Virus record (IMG/VR): IMGVR_UViG_3300007541_004782
Coordinates: 1-22,646 of that record
DNA length: 22,646 nucleotides
Source of the DNA: a virus
Reading direction: 5' to 3' (one strand)
In this document: in pieces, positions 2,865 to 15,674 of the stretch
Position numbering within the stretch: position 1 is the first letter of the stretch
Layout: each line of letters starts with the position of its first letter
Notes under the pieces: generated by a model
Databases searched by the model: none
What the model was told of the DNA's origin: nothing
Seen by the model: only the letters and a program-made list of their open reading frames with translations
Program-made: the position numbers and the translations under genes

Positions 2865-2888
2865 TAAAAACCCACCTTTCGGTGGGTA
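2865..2888 (-). terminator. Intrinsic terminator of the glycan operon
   Basis: Minus strand ACCCACC-GAAA-GGTGGGT followed by TTTT, immediately after the glycosyltransferase stop at 2896. It closes the 10.4-kb operon that begins at about 13.3 kb. Confidence 0.88.
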
Positions 2889-2895: not shown

Positions 2896-3717
2896 TTATT
2901 CAGTTGGTGGTTGGGCTTCTGATGTCCTTCCCAAATATGGATCAAAGTCCATAAGTTTCTCAATTTCTAGATCAGAACCACGAGTCTGCCAGAGATTTCG
3001 GAGTCCATCATGAGATCCTCTGTGGAAAATCTCAATATGTTCTGGGTGAATTGAAGAACCAAGTTCAATTCTATACAAGAACAGCGGAATAGCAAAAGTA
3101 TTTCCAGAGTTGTAAATTAGATCATCAGCAACGGCACGAGGCTTAATAGCATGATCAAGTTTATATTTGTCTCCACGGCAGTGAAGTCTCACAACTTTCT
3201 CTGCATGATGTCGGGTAATAACATAACATGCTGTAGAAAAATCATTAACAAACCTGCGATGCAAGTTGACATGAAGTGTCCCTGGACAAATAATTGCGAG
3301 TTGAACTACATCATAATCATATGGAAGTCTCGCAACAAATTGATTCCATGTAAAATTCCAGTGTTTTGCAATACTGATATCTACATCATCTTCCATAACA
3401 ATACAATATGGAGAATCAGAAGTTTCGAGATAATGTTTGAGTAGTTTGAGGTGGGAAGTAACACAACCAACTTCACCAGAACTCATATTTGCAGGGTATC
3501 TCCCATGGATGATATCGCTAAGATCATCTTCCCTACCATCGTAGGCAGAGATACGTTCATAGTTTTCAATTTCCCAGTAGGAAAACATTGATTCCATGTA
3601 AGCTTGTCTTTCAGGTTGACCATCTAGATTGATGTAATAGATGGGTCCAATACCTTTTAGTTTGTATGCAGATTTGTTTTTATCCATTACAGCAGATTCC
3701 ATCAGAGAACTTCCCAC
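2896..3717 (-). CDS. Glycosyltransferase family 25 (LPS-type galactosyltransferase-like)
   Basis: 273 residues. Family features in order: IYYINLDGQPERQAYM at about 26-41 (the N-terminal INLxxxxxR of GT25), RISAYDGR at 55-62, SGEVGCVTSHLKLLKHY at 80-96, and YCIVMEDDVDI at 104-114 with Glu109-Asp110-Asp111 as the metal/nucleotide-sugar acidic motif. GT25 enzymes add hexoses to lipooligosaccharide or to collagen hydroxylysine. The first ATG overlaps the upstream fucosyltransferase by 16 nt; the ATG at 3702 (residue 6) forms a TGATG overlap with that stop and has GGGAAG just before it, so it may be the real start. It is last in the glycan operon. Donor and acceptor are unknown. Confidence 0.85.
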   Translation of the reverse strand: MGSSLMESAVMDKNKSAYKLKGIGPIYYINLDGQPERQAYMESMFSYWEIENYERISAYDGREDDLSDIIHGRYPANMSSGEVGCVTSHLKLLKHYLETSDSPYCIVMEDDVDISIAKHWNFTWNQFVARLPYDYDVVQLAIICPGTLHVNLHRRFVNDFSTACYVITRHHAEKVVRLHCRGDKYKLDHAIKPRAVADDLIYNSGNTFAIPLFLYRIELGSSIHPEHIEIFHRGSHDGLRNLWQTRGSDLEIEKLMDFDPYLGRTSEAQPPTE

Positions 3718-4556
3718 CCCTCACAATAAAGATCGTTAGTATTATTATGTCCATATGAAGGACCAAACCAATTCTTAGGTGCTACGATTTTACCAGCACC
3801 ATTCTGCAACCATGCACCCCACCAAGACAAAGTAGAGTTTGCAATGATACCACCCTTGCAATTAGCCATAATGCAAAGATCAACATAAGGAGTATAGGAT
3901 CCATCAGGATACTTTTCTTCTGGAGTGGATACATAGAAACGATCTGGTTTAAAAAGTTCTTGTTCCATAACCCACTCTGGCGAATCGGAAACAACAACAA
4001 CTTCCTGATCTTCTGGGAATAGTTTAAGAGCTTCTTCATAGTAATCCAGAGTTTGTGGTGGATGTTGATCAGAACATTCAGTATATGCCCACTTAAATCC
4101 ACGAGCATCGACTAGATTAGGATCGCCACGGCGTACATGAAGGAAAATGGGATCCTTCAATTCGGAAAGAAACCCTTGTACGGGTTCAACCAAATCATTA
4201 TGGAAGGTAAAATCTTTACGAATTTCGTCTTTAATATGTGCAAAATACTTTTCAGTTTGAAAAAATCCGTGTAGAGATACATCATTAGGGCAAAGTTGAA
4301 GAAGTTCTTCATCAAAATGAAAATGTTTTTCAGCCACGACTGGAGCAAAACCCCTATCAAGAATATACAGATTGGTAGACTTTACACTTTCCAGTGTAAA
4401 ACAATTAGCCAAACTATAATTATCTACTCTGCGAGTATTATATGGAGGAATGCACCAATCATATCCTTTTGCGGTTGCAATACCTCGTAAAGCTGCATAC
4501 TGGAACATCTGATTTCCCAGACGGCCAATATTTCCCAATTCATTAAACGCCAGCAT
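3702..4556 (-). CDS. GT11 alpha-1,2-fucosyltransferase-like (paralogue A)
   Basis: 284 residues, a normal length for bacterial GT11. Signatures: GRLGNQMFQYAALRG at 11-25, GFFQTEKYF at 97-105, the catalytic HVRRGD at 140-145 (the HxRRxD loop binding the GDP-sugar phosphates), VVSDSPEW at 188-195, and IIANSTLSWWGAWL at 237-250. GT11 enzymes move L-fucose from GDP-fucose to a galactose O2. Of the three paralogues here this keeps the canonical motif most fully. It overlaps both neighbours, so it is translated within the operon. The donor could be GDP-L-fucose or, given the GME-like gene upstream, GDP-L-galactose; the choice is inference. Confidence 0.9.
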   Translation of the reverse strand: MLAFNELGNIGRLGNQMFQYAALRGIATAKGYDWCIPPYNTRRVDNYSLANCFTLESVKSTNLYILDRGFAPVVAEKHFHFDEELLQLCPNDVSLHGFFQTEKYFAHIKDEIRKDFTFHNDLVEPVQGFLSELKDPIFLHVRRGDPNLVDARGFKWAYTECSDQHPPQTLDYYEEALKLFPEDQEVVVVSDSPEWVMEQELFKPDRFYVSTPEEKYPDGSYTPYVDLCIMANCKGGIIANSTLSWWGAWLQNGAGKIVAPKNWFGPSYGHNNTNDLYCEGWEVL

Positions 4557-5364
4557 TTAATTGTTCTCCTCTTGTCTTAATGTACTCTTGTTGTTGGTAG
4601 TATGATTGCAATTTTTGTGTATCCCAAGTTCTAATATTCTGCCAGAGATTATGGTTATCCATGAACTTTGGATTGTGGTAGTGTGAATTAAATGTTCTAC
4701 CATGTTCAAAGTGATAGATGTTCTCATTAACTCTACCTACTCTGACTCCAAATGCATTCAATCTAAAGTAAAACTCACAATCTTCTGCTCCCCAAGAAAT
4801 AAAGTTCTCATTCCACATTCCAACTTCGATTTCAACCTGTCTCTTCAGCATTTGTCCCCATCCAATAGAAGAGGCCACTCTGAATTTACAATCATTCAAG
4901 ACATCAAAGTTAAAATTAGAATCAAGAAATTGATTAAAAGTGGACTCAGAATAATTTACAGCCCATTGATACACTCCGCACCCAAAAGGATACACTACAT
5001 CAACATCTCCAGATACTATTGCATTGTAAGCAGATTCATAACTACCTTTTGGTAATACTACGTCTACATCATGATTATAAACGATAGGAGTTTCAGAAGC
5101 AACTAAAAGGTCATTTAAGATGCGAGTCTTATGAAAAAACTTTTCGTCACTCTCTTCAAAAATATGAGTAAGATTATTAGTATCTGTATATTTTTTGATT
5201 ACAGGTAGGGCTCTGAACTTAAAGTGTGAATGTTTATCTACTTCTTTTAAAATTACTTTAGCTTCTGGAAAGTTTTTTAGAAGATAAGTCGTAGAAGTAA
5301 TTACATTTTTAAGTCTATCTTCAGACTCAATTCGGCATGGGAGTAGAAATGTTAAATCTTTCAT
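4543..5364 (-). CDS. GT-A fold glycosyltransferase with WGxED motif (galactosyltransferase/chondroitin-synthase-like)
   Basis: 273 residues. It starts LTFLLPCRIESEDRLKNV, the usual first strand of inverting GT-A enzymes. VYNHDVDVVLP at 95-105 supplies the Asp99-x-Asp101 metal motif, and FISWGAEDCEFYFRL at 188-202 is the W-G-x-E-D acceptor/catalytic motif of the GT7 beta-galactosyltransferase C-terminal domain and bacterial polysaccharide polymerases. Substrates cannot be read from this; galactose, GalNAc or GlcA transfer are the usual ones. It sits between two GT11 paralogues with short overlaps at both ends. Confidence 0.85.
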   Translation of the reverse strand: MKDLTFLLPCRIESEDRLKNVITSTTYLLKNFPEAKVILKEVDKHSHFKFRALPVIKKYTDTNNLTHIFEESDEKFFHKTRILNDLLVASETPIVYNHDVDVVLPKGSYESAYNAIVSGDVDVVYPFGCGVYQWAVNYSESTFNQFLDSNFNFDVLNDCKFRVASSIGWGQMLKRQVEIEVGMWNENFISWGAEDCEFYFRLNAFGVRVGRVNENIYHFEHGRTFNSHYHNPKFMDNHNLWQNIRTWDTQKLQSYYQQQEYIKTRGEQLNAGV

Positions 5365-6257
5365 TGTTCTGCGGGTACTGGAGAAGGGTCATTGTGAATC
5401 TTCACCCATCTCTCAGGGATCATATCCTTCATGTTATAGTGTGCATATGCTGGACCAAACCAAGGATCGGGAACTACAACTTTACCAACATCACCCTGCA
5501 ACCATGCACCCCACCAACTCAGAGAAGAGTTAGCGATAATAGCACCACCACAAAGACTCATAAGACAAAGGTCAATGTAGGGGACGGCCGCACCGTCTCC
5601 GAAGGTCTCATAGGATGAATCGGAGAAGTGGAATCTATCTCCTTGAAGCCACTCTTGACGTTTACACCAATCAATAAGATCGGAAACAACAATAATATTC
5701 TTATCTTCGGGAAACTCTTCTAGAGCTTTGCGATAATATTCCTCTTTACAGAGTGGGTGGTATTCCTGCACCATCTGATAAGACCACTTTTCACCTCTCC
5801 TACCAGTAAGATTTGGAGAACCACGGCGAACATGAAGAAAAATACAATTATCCCTTCCGCCAAGACTATCAATAAACCCTTGACACGGTTCCAGATACGT
5901 TTTCTTAAAAGTGAAATCCTCACGGATAGACGAGGCAATCGCCTCAAAGTACTTTTCCGTTTGAAAATTACCCGAAAAATTCGTATTGTCCTCGCAATTG
6001 TTGAAGATATCTTCATTGAAATGCATATCCCTATACTCTACAGTCTTGTAGAAGGGCTCTCCAGTGTTCTTATTTAGATCACAATTGGTAAGTTCAAATG
6101 CATCAAACAAACCATAATTATCTAAACGATCTGCATCAGGGCCTGGAACAATCCAGTCAAACCCACGATTGGCAGCAAGACCACGAATAAATGCGTATTG
6201 AAACATTTGGTTTCCGAGGCGCCCCTCGTTACCAAGTCCTTTAAATGATACAGTCAT
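5361..6257 (-). CDS. GT11 fucosyltransferase-like (paralogue B)
   Basis: 298 residues, closely related in layout to its two neighbours: GRLGNQMFQYAFIRG at 12-26, NFQTEKYF at 97-104, HVRRGS at 142-147, VVSDLIDW, and IIANSSLSWWGAWL near the C-terminus. The last residue of the catalytic HxRRxD motif is Ser instead of Asp, though both arginines are kept. About ten extra residues follow the final conserved block, ending PSPVPAEQ. The 4-nt ATGA overlap with the downstream gene and a one-base junction with the upstream paralogue show a tight operon. It probably transfers a GDP-linked 6-deoxyhexose or hexose to a glycan; whether the Asp-to-Ser change alters donor choice is open. Confidence 0.88.
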   Translation of the reverse strand: MTVSFKGLGNEGRLGNQMFQYAFIRGLAANRGFDWIVPGPDADRLDNYGLFDAFELTNCDLNKNTGEPFYKTVEYRDMHFNEDIFNNCEDNTNFSGNFQTEKYFEAIASSIREDFTFKKTYLEPCQGFIDSLGGRDNCIFLHVRRGSPNLTGRRGEKWSYQMVQEYHPLCKEEYYRKALEEFPEDKNIIVVSDLIDWCKRQEWLQGDRFHFSDSSYETFGDGAAVPYIDLCLMSLCGGAIIANSSLSWWGAWLQGDVGKVVVPDPWFGPAYAHYNMKDMIPERWVKIHNDPSPVPAEQ

Positions 6258-7117
6258 TACTTACTCCACTCTTGAATAATCCAACGATCAGGAACAATGT
6301 CCGAAGTATCTAGGTTAGACATTGCAGTACCAAACCACTTTTTAGGATCAGGTGCAATCACTTTACCTCGATCATTTTGCAACCATGCTCCCCACCAAGA
6401 GAATGATGAGTTTGCAATGATAGCACCAGAACAAAGACTCATCAGACACAGATCAACCTGTGGTAGAAGAGTATTCTGCATTTTTCCAGTACCATCAATA
6501 GTACGATATGTATATCTACCATTACTTTCATTAAACAAGAACCGATCCTGTTTAAAGAATTCCTGAGCCTTACACCAATCAATGTCATCAGTAAAAACAA
6601 AACAAGGGGTGTCTTCAGAGAACTCCTTTAACGCATCTTCAAAATAAGAGATCGGGAGGATGGGGTGGTATTCTTCTCTACCAATGTTGTCAGACTGACG
6701 AATGTGGAGAAAGATAGGATTCCTATCCAAGCTACTAATGTACTCCATACAAGGAGTGAGATAATCTTTTCTAAATGTGAAGTCCTCACGGATCTCCTGT
6801 GCAATGTGGCTGAAATATTTTTCAGTCTGGAAATATCCATCAAGACTCACATTGTCGGGACATTCATCAAAAAACTCTGGAATAAAACAATGGTCATTCT
6901 CTTGTATATATTGACCTTCAACAAAACCAATGTTCGATTTCTTAACATTTGTTAGTTCAAATGTTTCAAACAATCCATAATTATCTTTATGGTTGTAGTC
7001 ATCTGAAGGAATAACCCAGTCATATCCTCGTTTTGCAGCGATACCTCTAAGGGAGGCATATTGAAACATCTGGTTACCCAAACGTCCGTTACTTCCTAAT
7101 CGATTATAACCAATCAT
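6257..7117 (-). CDS. GT11 fucosyltransferase-like (paralogue C, altered catalytic motif)
   Basis: 286 residues with the same framework: GRLGNQMFQYASLRG at 11-25, GYFQTEKYF at 94-102, IIANSSFSWWGAWL near the end. The catalytic loop reads HIRQSD (138-143): the second Arg of HxRRxD is Gln, while His, first Arg and Asp remain. It also lacks about 15 residues between this loop and the next helix that paralogues A and B have (the GxKWxY stretch). It may act on another donor or acceptor, or be less active. The start codon overlaps the dehydrogenase stop by 4 nt (ATGA). It belongs to the glycan operon. Confidence 0.87.
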   Translation of the reverse strand: MIGYNRLGSNGRLGNQMFQYASLRGIAAKRGYDWVIPSDDYNHKDNYGLFETFELTNVKKSNIGFVEGQYIQENDHCFIPEFFDECPDNVSLDGYFQTEKYFSHIAQEIREDFTFRKDYLTPCMEYISSLDRNPIFLHIRQSDNIGREEYHPILPISYFEDALKEFSEDTPCFVFTDDIDWCKAQEFFKQDRFLFNESNGRYTYRTIDGTGKMQNTLLPQVDLCLMSLCSGAIIANSSFSWWGAWLQNDRGKVIAPDPKKWFGTAMSNLDTSDIVPDRWIIQEWSK

Positions 7118-8253
7118 AGTTCAATCCAAAAAGCTTCTTCATTTGGAATACCAAATACTACTCTATCACCAAACTGGGATTTTAGGCGATCTTCAATTTG
7201 ATTTAAAATTAAATCATACTCTGTCACATAAACTTTATATCCAGACTCTAATAAGTCACAACACAGTTTGAACTGTTGACTTTCTGTAAGGATATCGGTT
7301 CCTTTTTTATAAGTAATATAATGGAAACAGAAAGGAAGATTATCTCTATTTTTACCAATAAAATAATTCTTCAAGAACTTTGCATGTTCATTATTAAAGT
7401 CATCGGTAGTTTTCCCTAAGTTATATTTCAAACCAAGTTTTTCTGCATACTTACCAAAAGCTCTATTGTCTCTAGGTAAACAAGGGCCACCAAAACCAAA
7501 TCCATACTTCAAGTATTTACTTCCAATTCTACTATCACTTGCAATAGATGAAAGCACTTGTTCAATTTCATTTTCTAATCCAGAAAGAACAAGAACTTCA
7601 CCAATCATATTTGCAAAACTGATCTTAGTAGTCATGTAACAGTTAATTGCAATCTTAACTATTTCTGCAGCCGTGGAAGACATGACAGAAATAACTGGCT
7701 TAGTAACTTGAATCTTTTTATAAATTTCAGAAAGAGTTTCTAATACTTCTTCATTATCTCCACCAAGAAGAACCATATCTGCATGAGTTAGATCCTTAAT
7801 GATTGATCCCTGTGCGATGAACTCTGGATTATAAATGACACTTACACCATAAGATCTAAGTTGTTCTTGGAACCTTGCACAGTCTCCAGGATTAGTTGTA
7901 CATCCAACAACTAAAGTCTTTCCAGAGACATCCTGAAACTCTTGAAAGTCTCTAACAACATCCCATACGGAACCTACATCATATAAACCATCTTCCAAAG
8001 ATGGAGTTGCAACGAGAGTAAAGATAATATCACACTCTGCGATTACTCTTTTATTATCAGTTGTCGCTTCAAGATACTTAGTTTGTTTTAAGTGTTCTTG
8101 TACAAAAGGTTCTGAACTAGAAATAATTTTTTTGTTGAGGTTCTCTACATAGTCCTCACGAATGTCAGAGACTAGAACATCATATCCTGCGTTCTCCATA
8201 AGGAGTGCAAGACAGATGCCTAGTCTTCCTGCGCCGATTAATCCAATTTTCAT
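7114..8253 (-). CDS. Nucleotide-sugar 6-dehydrogenase (UDP-glucose/GDP-mannose dehydrogenase family)
   Basis: 379 residues; classic members have 390-440, so it is compact. The Rossmann start is MKIGLIGAGRLG (usual GxGYVG has become GAGRLG). YNPEFIAQGS at 141-150 carries the Glu of the NPEF motif, AEIVKIAINCYMTTK at 196-210 has the conserved Lys, and GFGFGGPCLPRD at 251-262 holds catalytic Cys258. A C-terminal domain with YKKGTDILTES follows. These enzymes oxidise the C6 alcohol of a nucleotide sugar to a uronate with 2 NAD+. The exact substrate (UDP-Glc, GDP-Man or an amino sugar) cannot be told. The start overlaps the NAD synthetase stop by 4 nt, an apt pairing with an NAD-consuming enzyme. 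Confidence 0.88.
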   Translation of the reverse strand: MKIGLIGAGRLGICLALLMENAGYDVLVSDIREDYVENLNKKIISSSEPFVQEHLKQTKYLEATTDNKRVIAECDIIFTLVATPSLEDGLYDVGSVWDVVRDFQEFQDVSGKTLVVGCTTNPGDCARFQEQLRSYGVSVIYNPEFIAQGSIIKDLTHADMVLLGGDNEEVLETLSEIYKKIQVTKPVISVMSSTAAEIVKIAINCYMTTKISFANMIGEVLVLSGLENEIEQVLSSIASDSRIGSKYLKYGFGFGGPCLPRDNRAFGKYAEKLGLKYNLGKTTDDFNNEHAKFLKNYFIGKNRDNLPFCFHYITYKKGTDILTESQQFKLCCDLLESGYKVYVTEYDLILNQIEDRLKSQFGDRVVFGIPNEEAFWIEL

Positions 8254-9041
8254 AGCTTGAATGTGGGAATTTCTACCATCTTATGTTTGTTTTGTATGTG
8301 AAACTTCTGATACACATTGATTGCATTAGTCTGTTCTTCATTAAGGAACAGGGGATCTTCAGTTAGACCCCTTTCCATAACCCACTCTAAGAGTGCATAA
8401 GAAGTTCCAATCTGATCTTCATCAGTACGACCATCATCCCAAAGACCATCAGTGGGTGGGGCAGAGACAATTCTTTCATCTACTCCCAAATGTTCACCCA
8501 ACATCCATACCTCAGTCTTATAAAGATCTGCAATAGGAGCAATATCAATACCACCATCACCATACTTAGTGTAGAATCCTACACCATAATCTTCAACTTT
8601 ATTACCAGTGCCAACTACAATACCATTTACAGAAGTTGCAACCTGATATAAAGTTATCATACGAAGTCTTGAGCGGCTATTAGCTTGTGCTAACTTATTA
8701 GTTGCAAAGTTTTCACCAAGATCACTAGAAATAGTCTGAAGGAACTTATCATAGACCAAACTCATATCGGTCTTAATAAATTTTACATTACTAAATTTAG
8801 ACTCCAACCACTTACCATGAACATCAGAAAGAGACTCCTGATTCTCTAGTTGATTGATAGGCATTCCTACCACATAAGTAGGCATACCAGTCAAAGCACA
8901 AAGAGTAGAAACTACAGAGGAATCAATTCCTCCGGAGATTCCTACTACAAGACTCTTGATTTTAGGATTAATAATGCAATACTCAGAAATCCATCCTACA
9001 ATCCGATCTTCCAAGTCATCATAGTCATGAATACGATTCAT
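8250..9041 (-). CDS. nadE: NH3-dependent NAD+ synthetase
   Basis: 263 residues, the size of ammonia-dependent NadE without a glutaminase domain. The PP-loop VGISGGIDSSVV is at 33-44 (SGGIDSS binds ATP pyrophosphate). GTGNKVEDYGVGFYTKYGDG and the following IDIAPIADLYKTEVW are specific to NadE and distinguish it from sugar amidotransferases of the same fold. APPTDGLWDDGRTDEDQIG is the usual C-terminal substrate loop. It adenylates nicotinic acid adenine dinucleotide and amidates it to NAD+ in the cytoplasm. ATGA overlaps link it to the methyltransferase before and the dehydrogenase after. Three NAD(P)-dependent sugar enzymes in the same operon suggest a cofactor supply role. Confidence 0.93.
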   Translation of the reverse strand: MNRIHDYDDLEDRIVGWISEYCIINPKIKSLVVGISGGIDSSVVSTLCALTGMPTYVVGMPINQLENQESLSDVHGKWLESKFSNVKFIKTDMSLVYDKFLQTISSDLGENFATNKLAQANSRSRLRMITLYQVATSVNGIVVGTGNKVEDYGVGFYTKYGDGGIDIAPIADLYKTEVWMLGEHLGVDERIVSAPPTDGLWDDGRTDEDQIGTSYALLEWVMERGLTEDPLFLNEEQTNAINVYQKFHIQNKHKMVEIPTFKL

Positions 9042-9817
9042 AAGTCTTTCTCCTTAGCCAAAATTACAGTGTTTTCGTAGTCTTTATTTGTAGTGAATTC
9101 AAAACGTTCACTCATTTTTTCGGCAAAATTATTATAGTAGAAATCATTAAAGTTGACAAGATTGTAGATAATGTAAGCAAACTTAGAATTTGCAACCAAC
9201 TTATCATAGTAATTCACCTGGGTATCGTAATCACACTCAGAAAGTGCATAGTTACTAATAAACAGATCAACTTCCTTAACTTCCTCTACGTCATCACAAC
9301 TTACGAACTTACACTTTGTATAAAGTTCTGGGAAGTTCTTAAGATACTTTTCTTGAACTGCAACAGCCTCTGGAAGATCAACTAAAATATATTCATCAAA
9401 CTCGCAAACTACACTCAAGGTCTTGCACAGTCCGCCATACCCGCCACCAACTTCTACTATACGACTGATGGGTGCATCTCCTAAGAGAGTCGCCATCTCA
9501 AATACATTCTTGATGTATCGGATTGTAGTGGGAGAGATTTTACCCGTTTCTGGATAAGAGAACTTATCGGGAGTTCCAATAGTATCATTCTCTTTAAATC
9601 CTTCTAGATTTTCTAGAAGTGCATCTCCAGCCATTTCCATGGCGAGTTGGAGATACTCTGCACCCTGTCTAGGGGTGACGTGTTCTAGAATGTTTTTATA
9701 TCCTTGTAGAGATTTAAACTTTGCAAAGATCTCATCATCTGCAACTGCACTACGACAGGTCTCCAGATAATCAACTGCGATTTGTTCTTCGGCTTCCCAG
9801 CCCTTATAAGTACTCAT
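9038..9817 (-). CDS. Putative sugar O-methyltransferase (class I SAM-dependent)
   Basis: 259 residues. After an alpha-helical region of about 115 residues comes RIVEVGGGYGGLCKTL (119-134), the glycine-rich SAM motif I, then EYILVDLPEAVAVQEKYL with an acidic residue ending strand 2 and LFISNYALSECD as motif IV. The GGGYGG form with a long N-terminal helical part matches the putative sugar O-methyltransferase family found in surface-polysaccharide clusters. It probably methylates a hydroxyl of a glycan or a nucleotide sugar. The start overlaps the GT10 stop by 4 nt. Confidence 0.8.
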   Translation of the reverse strand: MSTYKGWEAEEQIAVDYLETCRSAVADDEIFAKFKSLQGYKNILEHVTPRQGAEYLQLAMEMAGDALLENLEGFKENDTIGTPDKFSYPETGKISPTTIRYIKNVFEMATLLGDAPISRIVEVGGGYGGLCKTLSVVCEFDEYILVDLPEAVAVQEKYLKNFPELYTKCKFVSCDDVEEVKEVDLFISNYALSECDYDTQVNYYDKLVANSKFAYIIYNLVNFNDFYYNNFAEKMSERFEFTTNKDYENTVILAKEKDL

Positions 9818-10614
9818 TTCCAGTAAGTTTCGTAGAGGTAATCTTCTGCAACTTGCAGATTGTTTGCACGTTCAAAGTTATCCTTGATCGCATCCATTTT
9901 AGAATAATAAAGTTCTTCTGTCAAAGTAGAAACATCAAAGTTATCATCTAGGAATATAATTCCATCTTCGTTGAAATACTCTGTGACTCCTCTGCATCCA
10001 TAGAATACCGGAATCGTTCCTGTGGCGAAACAGTCTGTAAGTTTCTCCGTAAAGTATGTATCATAGACGGCATTCTCTACAGCCACAGAGAACATATAGT
10101 CTTTCATACCCTCTTCTTTACGGGGAAGATCACGGAATCCACGACCATAAAGATCAACCTGATCCCTAAACTTATTCACAAACTCAAGTCTCTTACGATG
10201 ACCAGGAACCATGGCCTTATTTGAAGAGATCATAGAGACTAATTTAGTTTTCTCATAAATTTTTCTTTCTTCAATCCAAGGAGCTGCATTACTCAATGCG
10301 TACTGGAACTTCGGATACTTTTTACAAAGTTCCTCATCACAACTAAAAATACCATCCACTCGGGAAGCAACAAAGTCATAATTAGAAAGAATCCATTCAT
10401 AAATCCCCTGAATGATTTGTTTAGATTCAAGTAACCAGATATACTTAGGAGTAGAAGAAGTATCCCGAAGTACGTCCAATGAACGTTGATTTACATACAG
10501 ACTCACCGCACCAGAACCATCATACACCCACTCAGTAAACTTAGAAGTATTCTTGTCGGATGTGGATGGTTTAAGTGAATCGTTGCAGTGTAAATTAATT
10601 TTGAACTTCGTCAT
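9814..10614 (-). CDS. GT10 alpha-1,3/1,4-fucosyltransferase
   Basis: 266 residues from the ATG at 10614. A TTG at 10635 would add seven residues, but would overlap the upstream gene by 41 nt; the ATG gives 20 nt. The family hallmark is the C-terminal donor-binding block at about 175-206: FSVAVENAVYDTYFTEKL, then FATGTIPVFYG, which contains the FxxxxENxxxxxYxTEK consensus of GT10. YGRGFRD about 15 residues earlier is the usual strand leading to it. GT10 enzymes transfer L-fucose from GDP-fucose to O3 or O4 of GlcNAc/Glc (Lewis-type structures). Together with three GT11 genes it makes four fucosyltransferase-like enzymes in one operon. Confidence 0.92.
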   Translation of the reverse strand: MTKFKINLHCNDSLKPSTSDKNTSKFTEWVYDGSGAVSLYVNQRSLDVLRDTSSTPKYIWLLESKQIIQGIYEWILSNYDFVASRVDGIFSCDEELCKKYPKFQYALSNAAPWIEERKIYEKTKLVSMISSNKAMVPGHRKRLEFVNKFRDQVDLYGRGFRDLPRKEEGMKDYMFSVAVENAVYDTYFTEKLTDCFATGTIPVFYGCRGVTEYFNEDGIIFLDDNFDVSTLTEELYYSKMDAIKDNFERANNLQVAEDYLYETYWK

Positions 10615-10810
10615 TTTTCTTTTTATTAAATCCAAATGGAATCAAAGTATTTTCAAGTTTAAGTTTCATTGCAACAGTACCAACAGCTTCCATAACTTTA
10701 AGAATGTCTTCTGGTTTAGCATCTTCACCGAGTTCTTTTGCAATATACCAGTACTTAGGCCAAAACTCTTCACCTGCCTTTTGATAATCTTCAAGTGTTA
10801 ATAGTTTCAT
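10595..10810 (-). CDS. Small protein in glycan operon, unknown
   Basis: 71 residues, soluble, mostly helical by appearance (LTLEDYQKAGEEFWPKYWYI, then EDILKVMEAVGTVAMKLKLE), ending in a lysine-rich tail. The start overlaps the preceding SDR gene by 4 nt (ATGA), and the end overlaps the GT10 start by 20 nt, so it is embedded in the operon. I recognise no family. It could be an accessory or regulatory protein for its neighbours, but there is no direct evidence. Confidence 0.7.
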   Translation of the reverse strand: MKLLTLEDYQKAGEEFWPKYWYIAKELGEDAKPEDILKVMEAVGTVAMKLKLENTLIPFGFNKKKNDEVQN

Positions 10811-11664
10811 TCGTAACCATACTCCTTTTTCATTTCATTGAAGACTGCAGCAATTCCCTTATCTATACCAGTCTTAGGCATCCACCATCCAGTAATATAA
10901 GTATCTGCTTCGTTTCTTTTATCCATCTGAACACTATCTTTTGCAAGACCCGGTTTAATCCTAACGTCATATTTTTCGATAAGATTGAACTGACCTTGAA
11001 TAGTTTCTGCAACTTCTTTAATTGAAGTAGATCTAAAGGAAGTAATATGAAGGGGATCTTCCGGTTTGAAGTCGGTATAGTTCTCCATAATAGTCTCAAG
11101 AGCTTCACAACAGTCCTCAGCATACAAGAATTGACGTTCCTCTGTACCATCAGTAAGCATCTCAAACTCACCTTCCTCAAATCCTCTACGAATAAAGTCA
11201 GTGATTACGTGAGACTTTTCATGATCTTTCTCAATACCATATACATTCCAGAACTTAACCGTAAGTCCTTTCAGTGCAGTAGTGTAAAGTTCACCAACCC
11301 TCTTCATCACACCATATGGAGAGTAACTCATGTTACTCATCTGGGAAGATGCAAATACAAATCTCTTATTATACTTTTCAAGAAGACCAAAAACATTGGC
11401 CATCAATCTGGCATTATTATTAATGAACTCAAATGTGTTCTGGTATTTTTTGAGATAACGGGAACCACCCACATCAAATGCAAGGAAGAAAACAAAGTCT
11501 GCAGTCTCAATTGCATTCTCAAGATATTGATTTGGGATTACAGTCATATCATGATTAGGCGTTTCAACCTTATCAAAGTCAATAACTACATGACCCTTCT
11601 TACGAAGATACTCTGAAAGATAGGCACCGATTTGCCCACTTGAACCTAGATTTAGAATTTTCAT
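10807..11664 (-). CDS. NAD-dependent sugar-nucleotide epimerase/dehydratase (extended SDR)
   Basis: 285 residues. N-terminal MKILNLGSSGQIGAYLSEYL has the GxxGxxG dinucleotide motif. FVFASSQMSNMSYSPYGVMK at 102-121 supplies the active-site Ser and the Tyr117-x-x-x-Lys121 dyad. WNVYG at about 139-143 and RQFLYAEDCCEAL are typical of extended SDRs that act on nucleotide sugars. The reaction (4-epimerisation, 4,6-dehydration or reduction) cannot be told. A GDP-4-keto-6-deoxymannose epimerase/reductase role would complete a fucose route but lacks specific support here. It overlaps the preceding methyltransferase stop by one base (TGATG). Confidence 0.85.
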   Translation of the reverse strand: MKILNLGSSGQIGAYLSEYLRKKGHVVIDFDKVETPNHDMTVIPNQYLENAIETADFVFFLAFDVGGSRYLKKYQNTFEFINNNARLMANVFGLLEKYNKRFVFASSQMSNMSYSPYGVMKRVGELYTTALKGLTVKFWNVYGIEKDHEKSHVITDFIRRGFEEGEFEMLTDGTEERQFLYAEDCCEALETIMENYTDFKPEDPLHITSFRSTSIKEVAETIQGQFNLIEKYDVRIKPGLAKDSVQMDKRNEADTYITGWWMPKTGIDKGIAAVFNEMKKEYGYE

Positions 11665-12233
11665 CAGACAATAGTAATTTGGTGTACATTTCCGAAGTTA
11701 ACAATACCAGTACCACTCATATGGGCAATTTCAGTTACATCAAACTTCTCTTCGGGAATCTCATCCCACATAAGTTGAATGTCGGGCCAATCAGGACCAA
11801 TATCGTCATGAATTAGAATTCCTTTCCAACCTTTTTCACGAAGCCAATCCATCATAACACGTTCTTGATCTCCATCATGAGGATCGACATCAATCATAAC
11901 GATAGGAATATTATCCCAATCAAGATCTTCATCTTCCATGAAGTTCATAATCTTCCATGTGATGTTATCTTTTTGAATTGAACTTGCACCCTGTTCAACA
12001 AGATCATAACTAATCACCTGATTATTGGGATTATAAGATAAAGCTAGGGCAGACCCGCCGGTGCGAGTACCTACATCCAAAATTGTCACCTTGTTGAAAA
12101 AGGTAGAAAGATAAGCATAAAGTTTATACTCACTTTGACCTGCAGGAAGCCAATCGTTCTGATTAAGAGACATATCCCTCAAATGACTTACATCAAGTTC
12201 TTTTACATGTTCTTTATTAATTTCGATTTTCAT
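11664..12233 (-). CDS. Class I SAM-dependent methyltransferase (Methyltransf_24/TylF-like)
   Basis: 189 residues from the ATG at 12233. A start at 12317 is open but would overlap the GME-like gene by 101 nt, so I prefer the ATG with AGAAAG before it, which overlaps only 17 nt. VTILDVGTRTGGSALAL (about 49-65) is SAM motif I. IVMIDVDPHDGDQERVMMDW and GILIHDDIGPDWP are the Asp-rich IDxDxxH and HDD segments seen in metal-dependent sugar O-methyltransferases of the TylF/macrocin group and related CmcI-like proteins. It probably methylates a sugar hydroxyl. It is second in the operon and the second methyltransferase in it. Confidence 0.8.
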   Translation of the reverse strand: MKIEINKEHVKELDVSHLRDMSLNQNDWLPAGQSEYKLYAYLSTFFNKVTILDVGTRTGGSALALSYNPNNQVISYDLVEQGASSIQKDNITWKIMNFMEDEDLDWDNIPIVMIDVDPHDGDQERVMMDWLREKGWKGILIHDDIGPDWPDIQLMWDEIPEEKFDVTEIAHMSGTGIVNFGNVHQITIV

Positions 12234-13281
12234 TATTCTTTCTAGTAATTTGTTCAGAAATCCAATTATATGTTTTACGAATACCTTCTTCAAGTGTTTG
12301 CTGATAATCCCATCCAAGTTCTCTACGAATTACATCGTTGTTGGAATTACGTCCACGAACACCGAGAGGTCCATCAATGTGAATCTTTTGAACCTGTTTA
12401 TTTGCAACACGAGCAGCAGTTTCTACAAGTTGATTAATGGTAACCATTTCTTCTGAACCAATGTTTACTGGTCCAATAAACTCAGAATCCATTAGTCGTC
12501 TAGACGCTTCAATGCATTCATCAATGTACAGGAAGGAACGAGTTTGTAAGCCATCTCCCCACACCTCAATGGATCCGCCTTCCTCTGGAAGGTAAGCGAC
12601 TTTACGGCAGATTGCAGCTGGCGCCTTCTCTCTTCCACCGTCCCAAGTTCCTTCGGGTCCGAAGATATTGTGATAACGTGTAACGCGGACAGGAATGCCA
12701 TAATTCCTATGATAAGCGAAATAGAGACGTTCAGAGAAGAGTTTCTCCCATCCATATTCAGAATCTGGGTTGGCGGGATAGGCTGATTCTTCACGGCAAT
12801 CAGGGTTATCTGGATCTAGTTGATTATGTTCTGGATACATGCAAGCAGATCCAGAATAGAAAATCTTAGTAGTATTTTTACCAACTCTCTCATTCATCTG
12901 ACGTTGCATTTCAAGAACGTTCAGATTGATAGACACAGAGTTGTGCATGATGTCTGCATCATTTTCACCGGTGAAAACAAAGCCAGCGCCACCCATATCA
13001 GCAGCAAATTGATAGATTTCATCGAAAGGTTGAATGTAACGATAAGGAACATGATTGTAGAAATTACCACGATCACCTTTATATTCCAACACACGACGTA
13101 CAAAATCTACGTCACGAAGATCTCCACGAATAAATTCGTTGGCTTCATGTACAGAAAACTCAGGATATTTAAGGTCTACACCACGCACCCAATATCCTTC
13201 GGAACGCAATCTACGAACCATATGACTTCCAATAAAGCCACCAGCACCGAGAACAAGTGCCTTCTTAATATATTGACTCAT
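12217..13281 (-). CDS. GDP-mannose 3,5-epimerase-like enzyme (GDP-L-galactose synthesis)
   Basis: 354 residues, extended SDR. GAGGFIGSH at 12-20 binds NAD. AADMGGAGF at 93-101, FYSGSACMYPE at 141-151, EYGWEKL at 175-181 and RYHNIFGPEGTWDGGREK at 202-219 with APAAICRK after it are signatures of GME. Catalytic residues of Arabidopsis GME (Cys145, Tyr174, Lys178, Lys217, from memory) correspond to Cys147, Tyr176, Lys180 and Lys219, all with the same offset of two. The family converts GDP-D-mannose to GDP-L-galactose (and GDP-L-gulose) by double epimerisation. It is first in the glycan operon, behind a good promoter. The ATG at 13281 has no strong Shine-Dalgarno. A bacterial relative with altered product is possible. 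Confidence 0.88.
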   Translation of the reverse strand: MSQYIKKALVLGAGGFIGSHMVRRLRSEGYWVRGVDLKYPEFSVHEANEFIRGDLRDVDFVRRVLEYKGDRGNFYNHVPYRYIQPFDEIYQFAADMGGAGFVFTGENDADIMHNSVSINLNVLEMQRQMNERVGKNTTKIFYSGSACMYPEHNQLDPDNPDCREESAYPANPDSEYGWEKLFSERLYFAYHRNYGIPVRVTRYHNIFGPEGTWDGGREKAPAAICRKVAYLPEEGGSIEVWGDGLQTRSFLYIDECIEASRRLMDSEFIGPVNIGSEEMVTINQLVETAARVANKQVQKIHIDGPLGVRGRNSNNDVIRRELGWDYQQTLEEGIRKTYNWISEQITRKNNENRN

Positions 13282-13313: not shown

Positions 13314-13342
13314 ATTATACCAATTATAATGTGAAATTGCAA
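13314..13342 (-). promoter_or_regulatory. Sigma70-like promoter for the glycan operon
   Basis: Minus strand TTGCAA (13337-13342), 17 nt, TATAAT (13314-13319), with TGG before the -10 (extended -10). Transcription would begin about 25-30 nt before the GME-like ATG. The -35 box lies inside the first codons of the divergent plus-strand oxygenase gene. Confidence 0.68.
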
Positions 13343-13960
13343 GAGACCTTGAAAAATACAAACAAAGTATTTCATTTTGATGGAGAGTATTTCAGTAAGT
13401 CGTATCAAATTATATCTGAGTTAGATCGACTATCTCTCATAAAAGAATCCGAACAGTATCTGGAAACTCATAGGAAAATTGAAGAGTTACATCCACCAAT
13501 AATGGCTGAAAATTTTTTTGATGATAAAATTTTAGAGAAGGAATGTTGGAAAAATTTAACTGAAAAAGTAACTTTAGAGGCAAACAATTATAGTAAATTA
13601 CATCTGGGTATTGATATAAAGTTTGAATCTTGTTGGATAAACAAGGTAGGGAACTACACAGATGTTGACATAAAAAATACTTTATATTTTGATGAAGATG
13701 TTCAATCATATACAGATAATCACTACCATTCTCATCATGAGAATCAATTAATTGGTTGCATTTTTTATTTACAAAACCCTAGTGAAAAATATGGAACTCT
13801 AATAAGGACTGAGAAAGGATCTCTTGTCCTCGATGGAACAGAAAATTCATTAACTATTTTTGATCCAAGATTGTATCACACTGCACTTGTACCTAATTCA
13901 GAAGTAACTTCAAAATATCCAAGATATGTGATCTTAATGTCTTTTGTATCTTCATACTAA
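13331..13960 (+). CDS. 2OG-Fe(II) oxygenase-like protein
   Basis: The only convincing plus-strand gene. 209 residues from a GTG at 13331; no in-frame ATG occurs before residue 58, and no Shine-Dalgarno precedes the GTG, so the start is uncertain. YTDNHYHSHHENQLIGCIFYLQ (127-148, split here as YTDNHYHSHHENQLIGCIFY then LQ) has the His cluster and strand of the phage/bacterial 2OG-Fe(II) dioxygenase family. SLTIFDPRLYHTALVPN at 173-189 gives the distal His183, and Arg198 fits the 2-oxoglutarate ligand. Such enzymes hydroxylate proteins or small molecules using oxygen and 2-oxoglutarate; the substrate is unknown. Its base composition is more AT-rich than the glycan operon. It is convergent with the small-gene operon on its right and divergent from the glycan operon. 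Confidence 0.78.
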   Translation: MKLQETLKNTNKVFHFDGEYFSKSYQIISELDRLSLIKESEQYLETHRKIEELHPPIMAENFFDDKILEKECWKNLTEKVTLEANNYSKLHLGIDIKFESCWINKVGNYTDVDIKNTLYFDEDVQSYTDNHYHSHHENQLIGCIFYLQNPSEKYGTLIRTEKGSLVLDGTENSLTIFDPRLYHTALVPNSEVTSKYPRYVILMSFVSSY

Positions 13961-13982
13961 AAAAGGTGGGATCTCTCCCACC
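13958..13982 (-). terminator. Intrinsic terminator of the 14.85-14.1 kb operon
   Basis: GGTGGGA-GAGA-TCCCACC followed by TTTTTT on the minus strand, placed just past the plus-strand oxygenase stop. On the plus strand the hairpin is followed only by TTCAAAG, so it mainly serves the minus strand. Confidence 0.85.
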
Positions 13983-14129
13983 TTCAAAGTTCAGGCTCGC
14001 CACTTGTTTTGAGTACGAGAAAACAAGAAACTCGGCGGGGTTAACCCCATCCGCACCAGGGCACGATTAACGTCTGTCCGAGACGGGCATATTGGGGATG
14101 ACTCCACCACCTAGTTTTACTTAACTAGG
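13983..14129 (-). ncRNA. GC-rich structured tail or candidate small RNA
   Basis: This 147-nt stretch is more GC-rich than its surroundings and has no convincing gene. Minus-strand hairpins in order: CCTAGTT/AACTAGG (14110-14129, the stop codon of the upstream gene in its loop), CGTCT/AGACG (14071-14085), GGGG-TTAA-CCCC (14037-14048), and CTTGTTTT/AAAACAAG (14003-14027) flanked by CGCC/GGCG, then the terminator at 13958-13982. It could be a long 3' UTR or a separate small RNA. GTG-started frames of about 40 codons exist on the minus strand but have no ribosome site. No known RNA family was recognised. Confidence 0.45.
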
Positions 14130-14344
14130 AAAAGTTGGATTAGTTTTGGTATCTCAATAGCTGCATAAAAAGCACACAAAAAGAGAATATCCCAGAACTT
14201 ATATTTGATAGCAAAGGGAACAACAAAAATGTTTCCAATGCATTTAACAAACAATCCAATTTTCATATCTCCCCAAAGCAGGAAAAAATATCCCGATAAG
14301 AGAAGAAGATTGCCAATGTATCTGAATACATTAGATTTTGTCAT
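14117..14344 (-). CDS. Small membrane protein, unknown
   Basis: 75 residues with two hydrophobic stretches (YIGNLLLLSGYFFLLWG, then an amphipathic loop and FWDILFLCAFYAAIEIP) and a short basic start. It is probably a two- or three-span inner-membrane protein. I recognise no family. It is last of three co-directional small genes and lies 26 nt after the 87-residue gene. Its stop codon sits in the loop of a perfect 7-bp hairpin that begins the structured tail downstream. Confidence 0.7.
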   Translation of the reverse strand: MTKSNVFRYIGNLLLLSGYFFLLWGDMKIGLFVKCIGNIFVVPFAIKYKFWDILFLCAFYAAIEIPKLIQLFLVK

Positions 14345-14370
14345 AAGGGGTTTGCTCCCGACCAGTGCTG

Positions 14371-14634
14371 TTATAGACCATCCGTGTCTTCATCATCGTC
14401 CCTTATATAACAAGGAACGCGATCCGGATCTAACCATTTCGCATATTCAATGTCTTCCATTGCAGTAGTGCATTGTAGACCATTATCAAAAAGATAAATG
14501 TCATTCCAACGTTTGGTGTAATGATCTTTCTTTTGCATTCTATAATCAGGCATACCATTTAATTCAATGATACCCTTTTGAACAAACCTATATCCTTCTC
14601 GTTCGAGAAGAACTTTAGGAAGTGTTTCAATCAC
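14371..14634 (-). CDS. Small soluble protein, unknown
   Basis: 87 residues from a GTG that overlaps the previous stop as GTGA. The sequence mixes charged and aromatic residues (LLEREGYRFVQKGIIELNG, DHYTKRWNDIYLFDNG) and ends in an acidic run (DDDEDTD). No signal or membrane span, and no family recognised. The overlap with the 73-residue gene and shared promoter support it being real. Confidence 0.7.
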   Translation of the reverse strand: MIETLPKVLLEREGYRFVQKGIIELNGMPDYRMQKKDHYTKRWNDIYLFDNGLQCTTAMEDIEYAKWLDPDRVPCYIRDDDEDTDGL

Positions 14635-14852
14635 GATACAAGAGCTCCTTCGGCTTCAAGATCTGCATAGATATAATCAATCAACATCTCATAATCATCC
14701 AGAGGATCTCCGGAGAAAATTACACCATTAGATTCATAAAACTTACGAACTTTTTTGAAGAGTTTCGGATTTTTTACATCCAGATAAGATTCTCCGTTCG
14801 CAGCAGACTTCAGAGTTTGAATGTCTTTTTTGAATTTATCAGTGAGTGACAT
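14631..14852 (-). CDS. Small soluble protein, unknown
   Basis: 73 residues, charged and probably helical (MSLTDKFKKDIQTLKSAANG; KLFKKVRKFYESNGV; DDYEMLIDYIYADLEAEG). No family recognised. It is the first gene after a near-consensus promoter (14877-14905) and its stop overlaps the next GTG start by 4 nt. Confidence 0.72.
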   Translation of the reverse strand: MSLTDKFKKDIQTLKSAANGESYLDVKNPKLFKKVRKFYESNGVIFSGDPLDDYEMLIDYIYADLEAEGALVS

Positions 14853-14876
14853 TTGTTTGAATTTGTTTACCTTGTT

Positions 14877-14905
14877 ATTATAGGGGATTGACTTGGAGAA
14901 GTCAA
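14877..14905 (-). promoter_or_regulatory. Sigma70-like promoter for the three small genes
   Basis: Minus strand TTGACT (14900-14905), 17 nt, TATAAT (14877-14882). A palindrome TTGACTT-4-AAGTCAA (14888-14905) covers the -35 and half of the spacer and may be an operator. Confidence 0.7.
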
Positions 14906-14908
14906 TAC

Positions 14909-14928
14909 GGACAGTTCGGTTTCTGTCC
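14909..14928 (-). other. Hairpin after the CAU tRNA
   Basis: GGACAG/CTGTCC stem with an 8-nt loop, 3 nt beyond the tRNA 3' end and before the next promoter. It has no T-run, so it is a possible 3'-end processing or weak termination structure. Confidence 0.35.
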
Positions 14929-14931
14929 TAG

Positions 14932-15004
14932 TGCTCCTTGAGAGGATCGAACTCTCCTGAAACCGATTATGAGTCGGGTGCTTTCACCAGATAGCTAAAG
15001 GAGC
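14932..15004 (-). tRNA. tRNA with CAU anticodon (elongator Met or Ile2)
   Basis: Complete cloverleaf: acceptor GCTCCTT/AAGGAGC, anticodon loop CTCATAA, T-arm GAGAG-TTCGATC-CTCTC. The anticodon CAU fits elongator Met or a lysidine-modified Ile tRNA reading AUA; the CGACTCATAATCG arm resembles E. coli ileX. It lies 4 nt from tRNA-Ile(UAU). No encoded CCA. Confidence 0.9.
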
Positions 15005-15008
15005 AAAG

Positions 15009-15080
15009 TAGGACTGCTGAGAATTGAACTCAGTTCACACCGTTATAAGCAGTGGGCCTTAACCAATAGGCGACAGTCCC
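15009..15080 (-). tRNA. tRNA-Ile (UAU)
   Basis: Acceptor GGGACTG/CAGTCCT, anticodon stem CACTG/CGGTG with loop CTTATAA, T-arm CTGAG-TTCAATT-CTCAG. UAU reads AUA directly, an anticodon most bacteria avoid. Preceded by a consensus promoter at 15095-15123. Confidence 0.9.
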
Positions 15081-15094
15081 ATGAAACCAAGTCA

Positions 15095-15123
15095 ATTATA
15101 GAGGACTTGGAACTCCTTGTCAA
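15095..15123 (-). promoter_or_regulatory. Consensus sigma70 promoter for tRNA-Ile(UAU) and the CAU tRNA
   Basis: Minus strand TTGACA (15118-15123), 17 nt, TATAAT (15095-15100). The -35 overlaps the stop codon of the Phd-like gene. A CCAAGTC/GACTTGG inverted repeat (15087-15110) flanks the -10. Confidence 0.78.
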
Positions 15124-15290
15124 GAGGCTTCGTTATTTAACTCTGTGTATATGCGTATGAGTTCGTCATCTGCAGGAACCATCACCGCTGTACTCGATCC
15201 GTTAGTTATACCTATTCGTTCTCCACTTTCAACTCTACCAATCATTTCATCCCAACGTTGTTGAAACTCTTCCACTGTGTAAACTTGCAT
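15120..15290 (-). CDS. Phd/YefM-like antitoxin homologue, no toxin partner seen
   Basis: 56 residues. MQVYTVEEFQQRWDEMIGRV, then ESGERIGITNGSSTAVMVPA and a helical tail DDELIRIYTELNNEAS. The pattern of a short strand, F-x-x-x-x-(D/E) helix, SGE-x-I-x-I-T-x-G, and a strand ending in VP-A-D/E is that of Phd/YefM antitoxins, which bind operator DNA as dimers and neutralise RelE/Doc-type toxins. Only the DNA-binding domain and a short tail are present, and no toxin-sized gene adjoins it. The start is the ATG at 15290; no Shine-Dalgarno is visible, but a perfect TATAAATA late-promoter box sits 10 nt upstream. A DNA-binding regulator is an alternative to an anti-toxin role. Confidence 0.68.
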   Translation of the reverse strand: MQVYTVEEFQQRWDEMIGRVESGERIGITNGSSTAVMVPADDELIRIYTELNNEAS

Positions 15291-15299
15291 TTGTTAGTG

Positions 15300-15307
15300 T
15301 ATTTATA
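15300..15307 (-). promoter_or_regulatory. T4-type late promoter box (TATAAATA)
   Basis: Exact TATAAATA on the minus strand, 10 nt before the Phd-like ATG. In T4 and T4-like cyanophages this octamer is the -10 of late genes read with the phage sigma factor gp55. The start site would then be at or near the ATG, giving an almost leaderless mRNA. Confidence 0.55.
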
Positions 15308-15310
15308 AAG

Positions 15311-15384
15311 TCGGAATGATAGGATTCGAACCTACGGCCACTCGCTCCCAAAGCGAGTGCTCTACCAAACTGAGCTACATTCCG
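15311..15384 (-). tRNA. tRNA-Pro (UGG)
   Basis: Acceptor CGGAATG/CATTCCG, D-arm AGCTCAGTTTGGTAGAGC, anticodon stem CTCGC/GCGAG with loop TTTGGGA, T-arm with GGTTCGAATCC. Anticodon UGG. Preceded by a promoter-like site at 15397-15425. Confidence 0.95.
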
Positions 15385-15396
15385 ATTTACTATTAT

Positions 15397-15425
15397 ATAG
15401 TAACATTAATGATCGCGTTTGTCAA
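15397..15425 (-). promoter_or_regulatory. Sigma70-like promoter for tRNA-Pro
   Basis: Minus strand TTGACA (15420-15425), 17 nt, TACTAT (15397-15402); a TATATA lies 3 nt further on. The -35 is in the end of the 49-residue gene. Confidence 0.5.
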
Positions 15426-15555
15426 ATGGAGCCCAATGTTGCCAGTTATATTTGTGAATTGCCCACATTCCGATGATCGGTACAACGACCAAAGCAAAAC
15501 AAAGGACTCCAAGTGTGAATGGGGTTTCAAGAACCCAACGTGCAAAGTGTACCAT
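15406..15555 (-). CDS. 49-residue membrane peptide, unknown
   Basis: Starts MVHFARWVLETPFTLGVLCF, continues ALVVVPIIGMWAIHKYNWQH and ends WAPFDKRDH: one strong transmembrane helix of about 20 residues with an aromatic and basic C-terminal tail. The ATG overlaps the stop of the 39-residue gene as TGATG. No family recognised. It is the last protein gene of the talC-gnd operon before tRNA-Pro. Confidence 0.62.
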   Translation of the reverse strand: MVHFARWVLETPFTLGVLCFALVVVPIIGMWAIHKYNWQHWAPFDKRDH

Positions 15556-15674
15556 CAGTGCGCGGTTCCGTTCCCATCGTAATCATCAGTATCATAATAC
15601 CCTCCTTTTGTCCCAAAGTAAAGCGTTGTTAGAACAAAAGGAATTGCAACAAATAAAAGAGCTTTACCTAACAT
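15555..15674 (-). CDS. 39-residue membrane peptide, unknown
   Basis: Starts MLGKALLFVAIPFVLTTLYF, followed by the polar tail GTKGGYYDTDDYDGNGTAH: a single N-terminal helix and an acidic, Tyr/Asp-rich end. The start lies 11 nt inside the end of gnd and the stop overlaps the next ATG by one base, so the three genes are probably translated together. Function unknown. Confidence 0.62.
   Translation of the reverse strand: MLGKALLFVAIPFVLTTLYFGTKGGYYDTDDYDGNGTAH

Follow-up and report, generated by a model that had tools for sequence, protein, structure and literature searches.

A GDP-mannose 3,5-epimerase is linked with fucosyltransferase-like genes in a T4-like cyanophage glycan operon

Which sugar do the fucosyltransferase-like enzymes of a phage transfer when the operon that encodes them starts with an epimerase for another hexose? 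This question is raised by the virus record IMGVR_UViG_3300007541_004782, a stretch of 22,646 bases that was analysed at its full length and is called the window below. It holds 14 tRNA genes, talC, gnd, petF and further genes typical of T4-like cyanophages, and a minus-strand operon headed by a gene for GDP-mannose 3,5-epimerase (GME). As the best explanation of the whole we propose a surface-glycan cassette of a T4-like cyanophage in which GDP-L-galactose made by GME would be used by transferases of the families GT10 and GT11, a reading to which we give a probability of about 0.6. The genes on which it turns are:

12217–13281, minus strand: GDP-mannose 3,5-epimerase (GME), operon gene 1, assigned by sequence, residues, tree and fold
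9814–10635, minus strand: GT10, alpha-1,3-fucosyltransferase-like (PF00852, 48.7 bits, cut-off 23.9); an ATG start near 10614 is possible
6257–7117, minus strand: GT11 copy c, motif HIRQSD (PF01531)
5361–6257, minus strand: GT11 copy b, motif HVRRGS (PF01531)
3702–4556, minus strand: GT11 copy a, motif HVRRGD (PF01531)

The best solved relative of the lead enzyme is the GME of Arabidopsis (E 4.5e-83, the next family reaching 3e-20 or worse), and the top five sequence matches among solved structures are all GMEs. Identity amounts to 47.6% with Arabidopsis GME over 313 aligned positions and to 66.2% with a GME-like protein of Hyphomonas, versus 24.7–28.7% with Gmd, Fcl and RmlB of E. coli and a phage Fcl. 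The original prediction had matched Cys147, Tyr176, Lys180 and Lys219 to plant GME; these residues are indeed matched by C, Y, K and K at identical positions of the 2c59 chain. The numbering of this chain is the published plant numbering plus 2: PDB titles number the plant residues Y174, K178 and K217, and C145 and R306 are the published catalytic positions (PMC6678494). R311 of the window protein is the equivalent of plant R306, and with S145 and the glycines G12/G15/G18 of a GxxGxxG motif the catalytic residues of a GME are all present. C147, K219, Y176, K180 and R311 are invariant in 12 of 12 phage GME proteins and also in 19 phage and contig-derived ones. In a tree of 44 rows comprising GME, Fcl, Gmd and RmlB, 11 phage GMEs including that of the window fall among 23 rows taken as cellular, some of which stem from metagenome or single-cell contigs and are possibly viral. 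Gmd and Fcl form separate branches of their own; the all-GME branch has a support of 87/90, with long branches flagged. A grouping with UDP-sugar enzymes was not seen in this tree, which held no UDP-sugar epimerase. The structure model has a mean predicted local distance difference test score (pLDDT) of 80.3, with residues 94–113 below 50. In the fold search suggested in the original prediction, ranks 1 to 14 are all taken by plant GMEs (E 1e-30 to 1e-27), and human UDP-xylose synthase comes next at 2e-21. Family scores, sequence, tree, identities and fold together rule out a UDP-sugar epimerase, Fcl or Gmd. The enzyme very probably makes the L-galactose building block GDP-L-galactose, as its predicted activity.

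All four fucosyltransferase-like proteins score over their Pfam cut-offs as had been claimed, the three GT11 proteins reaching 75.5, 56.9 and 62.5 bits against PF01531 (cut-off 23.9). The GT10 protein also matches solved alpha-1,3-fucosyltransferases in a PDB sequence search; no solved relative of GT11 copy a was found in the PDB.

We then asked whether the window could supply GDP-L-fucose itself. It encodes only two Epimerase-family proteins. With 89.8 and 38 bits the two exceed the cut-off (27) of PF16363 (GDP_Man_Dehyd), a Pfam model of broad scope, but against the Fcl model they score 91.7 and 41.5 bits, far below the cut-off of 500, and TIGR01472 (gmd) is absent from their NCBIfam matches, which bears out the originally noted lack of gmd and fcl in the window. 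In S-SCSM2R (244 kb), the most similar complete genome that turned up, no gmd exceeds the cut-off, and the sole weak match is GME itself.

In the phage collection GME relatives with at least 60% identity occur in 38 records, Gmd relatives at the same level in 76, GT11 relatives (E 1e-5) in 103 and a talC relative in 507, not all of which are cyanophages. A set of 25 records was selected for closer comparison: 17 carry GME (out of 37 listed rows at 60% identity or above) and 9 carry gmd (out of 60 listed rows), S-SCSM1 belonging to both groups. The selection excludes duplicates, close relatives and some fragments, and it includes a few records that are incomplete (66–149 kb). A gmd over the cut-off of 415 bits is found in 9 of the 25. 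It is missing from 16 of the 17 GME records, and all eight records without GME have it together with fcl. GT11 passes the cut-off in 23 of the 25 records and GT10 in nine, including the two without GT11; as the records were picked for GME or Gmd, no independent denominator exists for this count. GME is immediately followed by a GT10 (S-SM2, S-T4, Sf-CH5) or a GT11 (Bellamy, S-8S55, S-PRM1, S-CAM9, AG-345-L05, AG-345-E15, SynMITS9220M01) in 10 of the 17 GME records. Among the best 80 of 600 GME loci from IMG/VR, 53 are viral with at least 5 kb of room downstream, and in 44 of these a GT10 or GT11 gene lies within 6 kb of GME on the same strand. Contigs of cellular genomes show this in 8 of 57 cases, a rough contrast, the profiles having been built on phage proteins. 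Gene content, gene order, the identity of GME and its conserved linkage with GT10/GT11 are thus matters of observation. Linkage and gmd pattern lend comparative support, in part, to the idea that GDP-L-galactose feeds the fucosyltransferase-like enzymes. Of the corresponding claim in the original prediction, the GME identity and the linkage to GT10/GT11 have held up; that these transferases use GDP-L-galactose as donor is a likely prediction.

A competing explanation is that GT10 and GT11 are ordinary fucosyltransferases working on GDP-L-fucose of the host, the GME sugar being used by another transferase of the GT2 or GT25 type. Since gmd passes the cut-off in 195 of the 300 genomes of the Prochlorococcus family that we sampled as hosts, host GDP-L-fucose could be the donor. 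Furthermore, S-SCSM1 carries GME, gmd and fcl together, and phage B23 (243.6 kb) encodes a GT11 but nothing that matches the Epimerase family. B23 thereby breaks, and so weakens, the rule that a donor module accompanies GT11 in every phage. Besides these three points and the lacking denominator, several others count against the reading that we favour. Bellamy and SynMITS9220M01 each have a gmd relative at 164–165 bits, under the cut-off, and 9 of the 53 viral GME loci have no GT10 or GT11 within 6 kb (three of the nine have a second GME-like gene after the gene for a second short-chain dehydrogenase/reductase, SDR2). The usual GT11 motif is HxRRxD; it is kept in copy a and altered in copies b and c, so that two of the three window GT11s depart from it. 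The b and c orthologues in three relatives are altered likewise (HVRRGN or HIRQSD), and all eight GT11 copies with an altered motif are found in GME cassettes. What speaks against fucose transfer from the host pool is the position of GME directly before GT10 or GT11 in the 10 records mentioned, as well as the fact that the eight chosen phages with gmd and without GME bring fcl too. We consider this explanation rather unlikely.

A tree of 38 phage GT11s bears on the same question. Its donor labels need four changes, against a mean of 7.4 in shuffles, at most 2 of 500 of which go as low as four; the starred branches force at least two changes. This clustering beyond the shuffles makes some donor specialisation possible, which is a further point against our reading. 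The GT11s of GME phages and Gmd phages do not form two separate clades, and one GT11 from S-SRM01, a gmd phage, clusters with the GT11s found in S-T4 and Sf-CH5 (support 99/95). The tree would fit one transferase pool served by either donor.

In the host sample GME was found at E 1e-70 in one of the 300 genomes, the centre genome of the sample (a single-cell genome of Prochlorococcus in which GME adjoins a UGDH-like gene), and GT11 in 23. GME is not wholly absent from hosts, being present in four Prochlorococcus single-cell records (L257–L259, L261), which again tells against our reading. The single genome in 300 makes it less likely that GME was simply captured from the usual host, although these four records are known. 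In L257 (7980–11220), whose surroundings alone were inspected, GME adjoins a UGDH-like gene within a sugar gene cluster, and the C-terminal half of this UGDH-like gene looks oxygenase-like by eye.

The remaining features of the operon are:

13314–13342, minus strand: promoter-like site TTGCAA-17-TATAAT with extended -10, before GME
11664–12233, minus strand: MT1, second operon gene, methyltransferase-like by eye
10807–11664, minus strand: SDR2, nearest folds GDP-sugar and UDP-sugar SDRs
10595–10810, minus strand: 71-amino-acid protein, phrog_2171, function not assigned (PHROGs)
9038–9817, minus strand: MT2, NanM-type sugar O-methyltransferase (TIGR04371, 68.8 bits, cut-off 44)
8250–9041, minus strand: NAD-synthase-like (NadE-like) protein, NH3-dependent type (TIGR00552, 158.7 bits, cut-off 63.65)
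7114–8253, minus strand: UDP-glucose/GDP-mannose dehydrogenase-like (UGDH-like) protein with catalytic-type Cys258 (TIGR03026, 215 bits, cut-off 189.8)
4543–5364, minus strand: GT2/GT7C-type glycosyltransferase (family search)
2896–3717, minus strand: GT25 glycosyltransferase, last operon gene (family search)
2870–2887, minus strand: operon terminator after the last gene (terminator search)

From 13281 to 2896 the operon comprises 13 open reading frames (ORFs) that overlap at 12 of 12 junctions (listed starts, MT1 taken as 11664–12233). The predicted array of about a dozen overlapping genes closed by one terminator, found at 2887–2870, is therefore confirmed. The predicted single promoter fared less well: between 1900 and 14900 we counted 42 promoter-like sites against 42.3 in shuffles, so the class is not above chance, and because such sites are as common in shuffles the operon promoter is a plausible guess from position only. 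Taken together, the operon is real and coherent and is probably functional for the supply of GDP-L-galactose, as predicted.

SDR2 gives rise to another alternative, in which GME performs an earlier step and SDR2 converts GDP-L-galactose or GDP-L-gulose to a further sugar that is the real donor. Among the ten gene families searched, SDR2 is indeed the first to appear after GME in 28 of the 53 viral loci, and the nearest folds of its model (pLDDT 87.8) include the GDP-heptose dehydrogenase Cj1427 and GDP-fucose synthetase, next to UDP-galactose 4-epimerases. The columns of the catalytic Cys and Lys of GME are gaps in SDR2 (17 of 17 aligned rows). However, SDR2 is absent within 6 kb of GME at 24 of the 53 loci, and P-SSM2 combines SDR2 with Gmd and Fcl. 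We regard a conversion by SDR2 as improbable.

Of the two methyltransferases originally claimed, only the NanM-type enzyme MT2 is borne out; no solved relative of it turned up in the PDB search. For MT1, searches of Pfam, PHROGs, NCBIfam and PDB with the limits applied gave no match. The 71-amino-acid phrog_2171 protein also lies between SDR2 and GT10 in three IMG/VR loci (L040, L058, L069), and GT25 relatives are present in most of the related stretches compared.

The NadE-like protein stays under the PRK13980 equivalog cut-off (176 vs 255). In the UGDH-like protein C258 is part of the catalytic motif GFGGPC, and the C-terminal UDP-binding domain is below its cut-off (22.3 vs 30). In all 22 loci that leave 1.5 kb or more of space, a UGDH-like gene follows the NadE-like gene within 2.5 kb; these loci represent 21 distinct proteins (L017 equals L206). 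This constant pairing suggests that the two proteins act in one joint reaction. A GTGNKVEDYG stretch, with a one-residue insertion relative to E. coli NadE, is common to all 14 NadE-like proteins aligned, and the protein may amidate a uronic acid. The two genes are also adjacent in Pelagibacter phage HTVC008M, and an asparagine synthase is annotated inside the S-SCSM1 cluster. In the literature, a search on NAD synthetase with UGDH in phages yielded a single review, and one on NAD synthetase with O-antigen, amidotransferase or uronic acid yielded nothing relevant.

Upstream of the operon the window contains:

13989–14087, minus strand: wcaG RNA (RF01761), upstream element (cmscan 59 bits, gathering score 42, E 7e-9)
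13962–13985, minus strand: intrinsic terminator right after the wcaG RNA, 10-pair stem and T-run
13331–13960, plus strand: opposite-strand ORF between wcaG RNA and GME, outside the operon, 2-oxoglutarate-oxygenase-like by eye only, with no match in family or profile searches

The wcaG RNA has been a riboswitch candidate since 2010 and is described as typically regulating exopolysaccharide or high-light genes (PMC2864571). In the window it is not a 5' leader of GME, as the terminator and the opposite-strand ORF intervene; the same arrangement is seen in locus L170. This lowers the case for wcaG acting on the window GME but not for other wcaG loci. Among the 25 chosen records wcaG occurs in 13 (11 over the gathering score), in every case upstream of GME or gmd, on the same strand and within about 3.5 kb. 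A search of IMG/VR by RNA pattern alone gave at least 120 wcaG loci (111 distinct), three of the 120 having already been found through GME. Downstream sequence of 3.5 kb or more is available for 51 distinct loci: GME is present at 25, Gmd at 9, both at 5, only GT10/GT11 at 4 and none of these at 8, so wcaG lies upstream of either donor module (within 5 kb) in 39 of them. In L175, one of the eight, a GME is cut by the contig end (82 bits). The reverse order, GME or Gmd upstream of wcaG within 5 kb on either strand, was seen in 0 of 58. At the other wcaG loci the RNA precedes glycan clusters, of the rml type or otherwise, or an SLH-type porin together with ferredoxin (named by eye). The idea of wcaG as a sensor for GDP-L-sugar operons only is weakened, with 12 of the 51 loci lacking GME and Gmd within 5 kb at the thresholds used. 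No RF01761 was found in the 300 host-family genomes, in a search whose filters may miss matches.

An intrinsic terminator follows 100 of 108 distinct wcaG RNAs. A TATAAT-like hexamer lies 2–12 bases after the hairpin at 77 of 90 wcaG terminators compared with 31 of 147 other terminators on the same contigs, a contrast whose significance the p-value overstates, the sequences being related. A full two-hexamer promoter follows wcaG in 35 of 108 cases against 10.75 in shuffles, with the -35 element inside the hairpin in 30 of the 35; promoters upstream of the RNA are not above chance (12 of 109 vs 12.9 in shuffles). Transcripts started by a promoter of this kind would exclude wcaG, and a plain 5'-leader riboswitch sits uneasily with this layout. 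The window has kept the terminator, and its -10 box is degenerate by eye. This anatomy of RNA, terminator and promoter appears to be new: we found no description of it in the literature searched on the wcaG RNA and on cyanophages, PMC9964418 included.

By eye we also noticed tandem self-similar stem modules (...GGTGGAGTCA..., ...CACTGGTCGG...) upstream of wcaG at about 14345–14389 of the window and in several other loci (e.g. L154, L157, L160). A low-threshold Rfam search of these modules gave one weak second wcaG match only, in L154, and a repeat search found no direct repeats in 13900–15700. A PhotoRC-II RNA is located at 182–275 of the window (82.7 bits).

As to catalytic activity, donor use, acceptor and purpose of the cassette, we infer the following from gene content. 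Phage GME would convert host GDP-mannose to GDP-L-galactose (and GDP-L-gulose, as known GMEs do), and GT10 and GT11 would attach the resulting L-hexose, which is L-fucose with a 6-hydroxyl group, to a glycan in whose assembly the GT2-type and GT25 enzymes may take part. The dehydrogenase could add a uronic acid branch, the NanM-type enzyme may methylate the glycan, and SDR2 may modify a GDP-sugar. The site would most likely be the lipopolysaccharide of the infected host, with superinfection exclusion or altered recognition as a result. Alternatively, the cassette might serve virion glycosylation. GDP-L-fucose enzymes of the type found in PBCV-1 are used for capsid glycans. That other large viruses such as chlorovirus PBCV-1 encode them is indicated by a title in the reference list of PMC9614988. 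No virion acceptor is indicated by the present analysis, however, and the authors of the S-SCSM1 paper favour a change of the host surface (PMC9602691). A virion purpose is possible, though we think it unlikely.

The original prediction regarded the system as possibly undescribed, which does not hold: cassettes of this kind are already known, in print for S-SCSM1 and in deposited cultured isolates. The 2022 paper on S-SCSM1 reports GME together with fucosyltransferases (PMC9602691), and a paper from 2023 lists GME with the cell-wall genes that T4-like cyanophages carry (PMC10665884). S-SCSM2R (PQ898602), S-SSM7 (GU071098) and Sf-FS3 (PV340856) share 12 of the 13 operon genes with the window, and from GME to GT25 these follow one another in identical order. 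The 71-amino-acid gene of the window was not found in them, and unlike in these three cassettes an opposite-strand ORF splits wcaG from GME in the window; S-SSM7 has an extra gene before GT25, and Sf-FS3 has gaps and possibly extra genes. The cell-wall cluster of S-SCSM1 resembles the window in GME, GT11, GT25, GT2-type gene and wcaG RNA but has gmd and fcl too, while GT10 is absent from the record and NadE and UGDH from the stretch examined. Cassettes of the P-SSM2 type likewise have GT11 and GT25 behind a nucleotide-sugar module, but with gmd and fcl and no GME. The bacterial GM35E of Methylacidiphilum fumariolicum, likened here by description and not by sequence, has the same catalytic set and a predicted role in lipopolysaccharide (PMC6678494), but is cellular. 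In the literature searched on cyanophage GME, L-galactose and fucosyltransferases we recognised no further treatment of the pairing, which PMC8557907 and PMC10570341 do not cover. For a swap of the donor modules GME and Gmd/Fcl, likewise, no description was seen in the literature searched.

All these elements can be joined in one wider reading, which we put forward as a long shot. Interchangeable GDP-L-hexose modules (GME for L-galactose, Gmd and Fcl for L-fucose) would feed a shared GT10/GT11 pool behind the orphan wcaG RNA. The latter would be a sensor-terminator unit, overlapped at its downstream side by a restart promoter, and its ligand might be GDP-mannose, the substrate that the two modules have in common. 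In the cassette type of the window, the NadE-like protein would amidate the UDP-uronate made by the UGDH-like enzyme to a uronamide sugar and would not synthesise NAD.

If the use of GDP-L-galactose by GT10 and GT11 is true, cyanophages introduce an L-hexose that is seldom produced by the picocyanobacteria they infect, judging by GME in one of 300 sampled host-family genomes, and this sugar would be a clean chemical marker of cell surfaces or virions remodelled by phage. The exchange of GME for Gmd/Fcl offers matched natural pairs for studying the donor specificity of the fucosyltransferase families, and the wcaG RNA gains an anatomy of RNA, terminator and promoter-like box together with a short list of candidate ligands. 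The swap and the wcaG anatomy are what this analysis adds to the biology of these phages, and both are directly testable.

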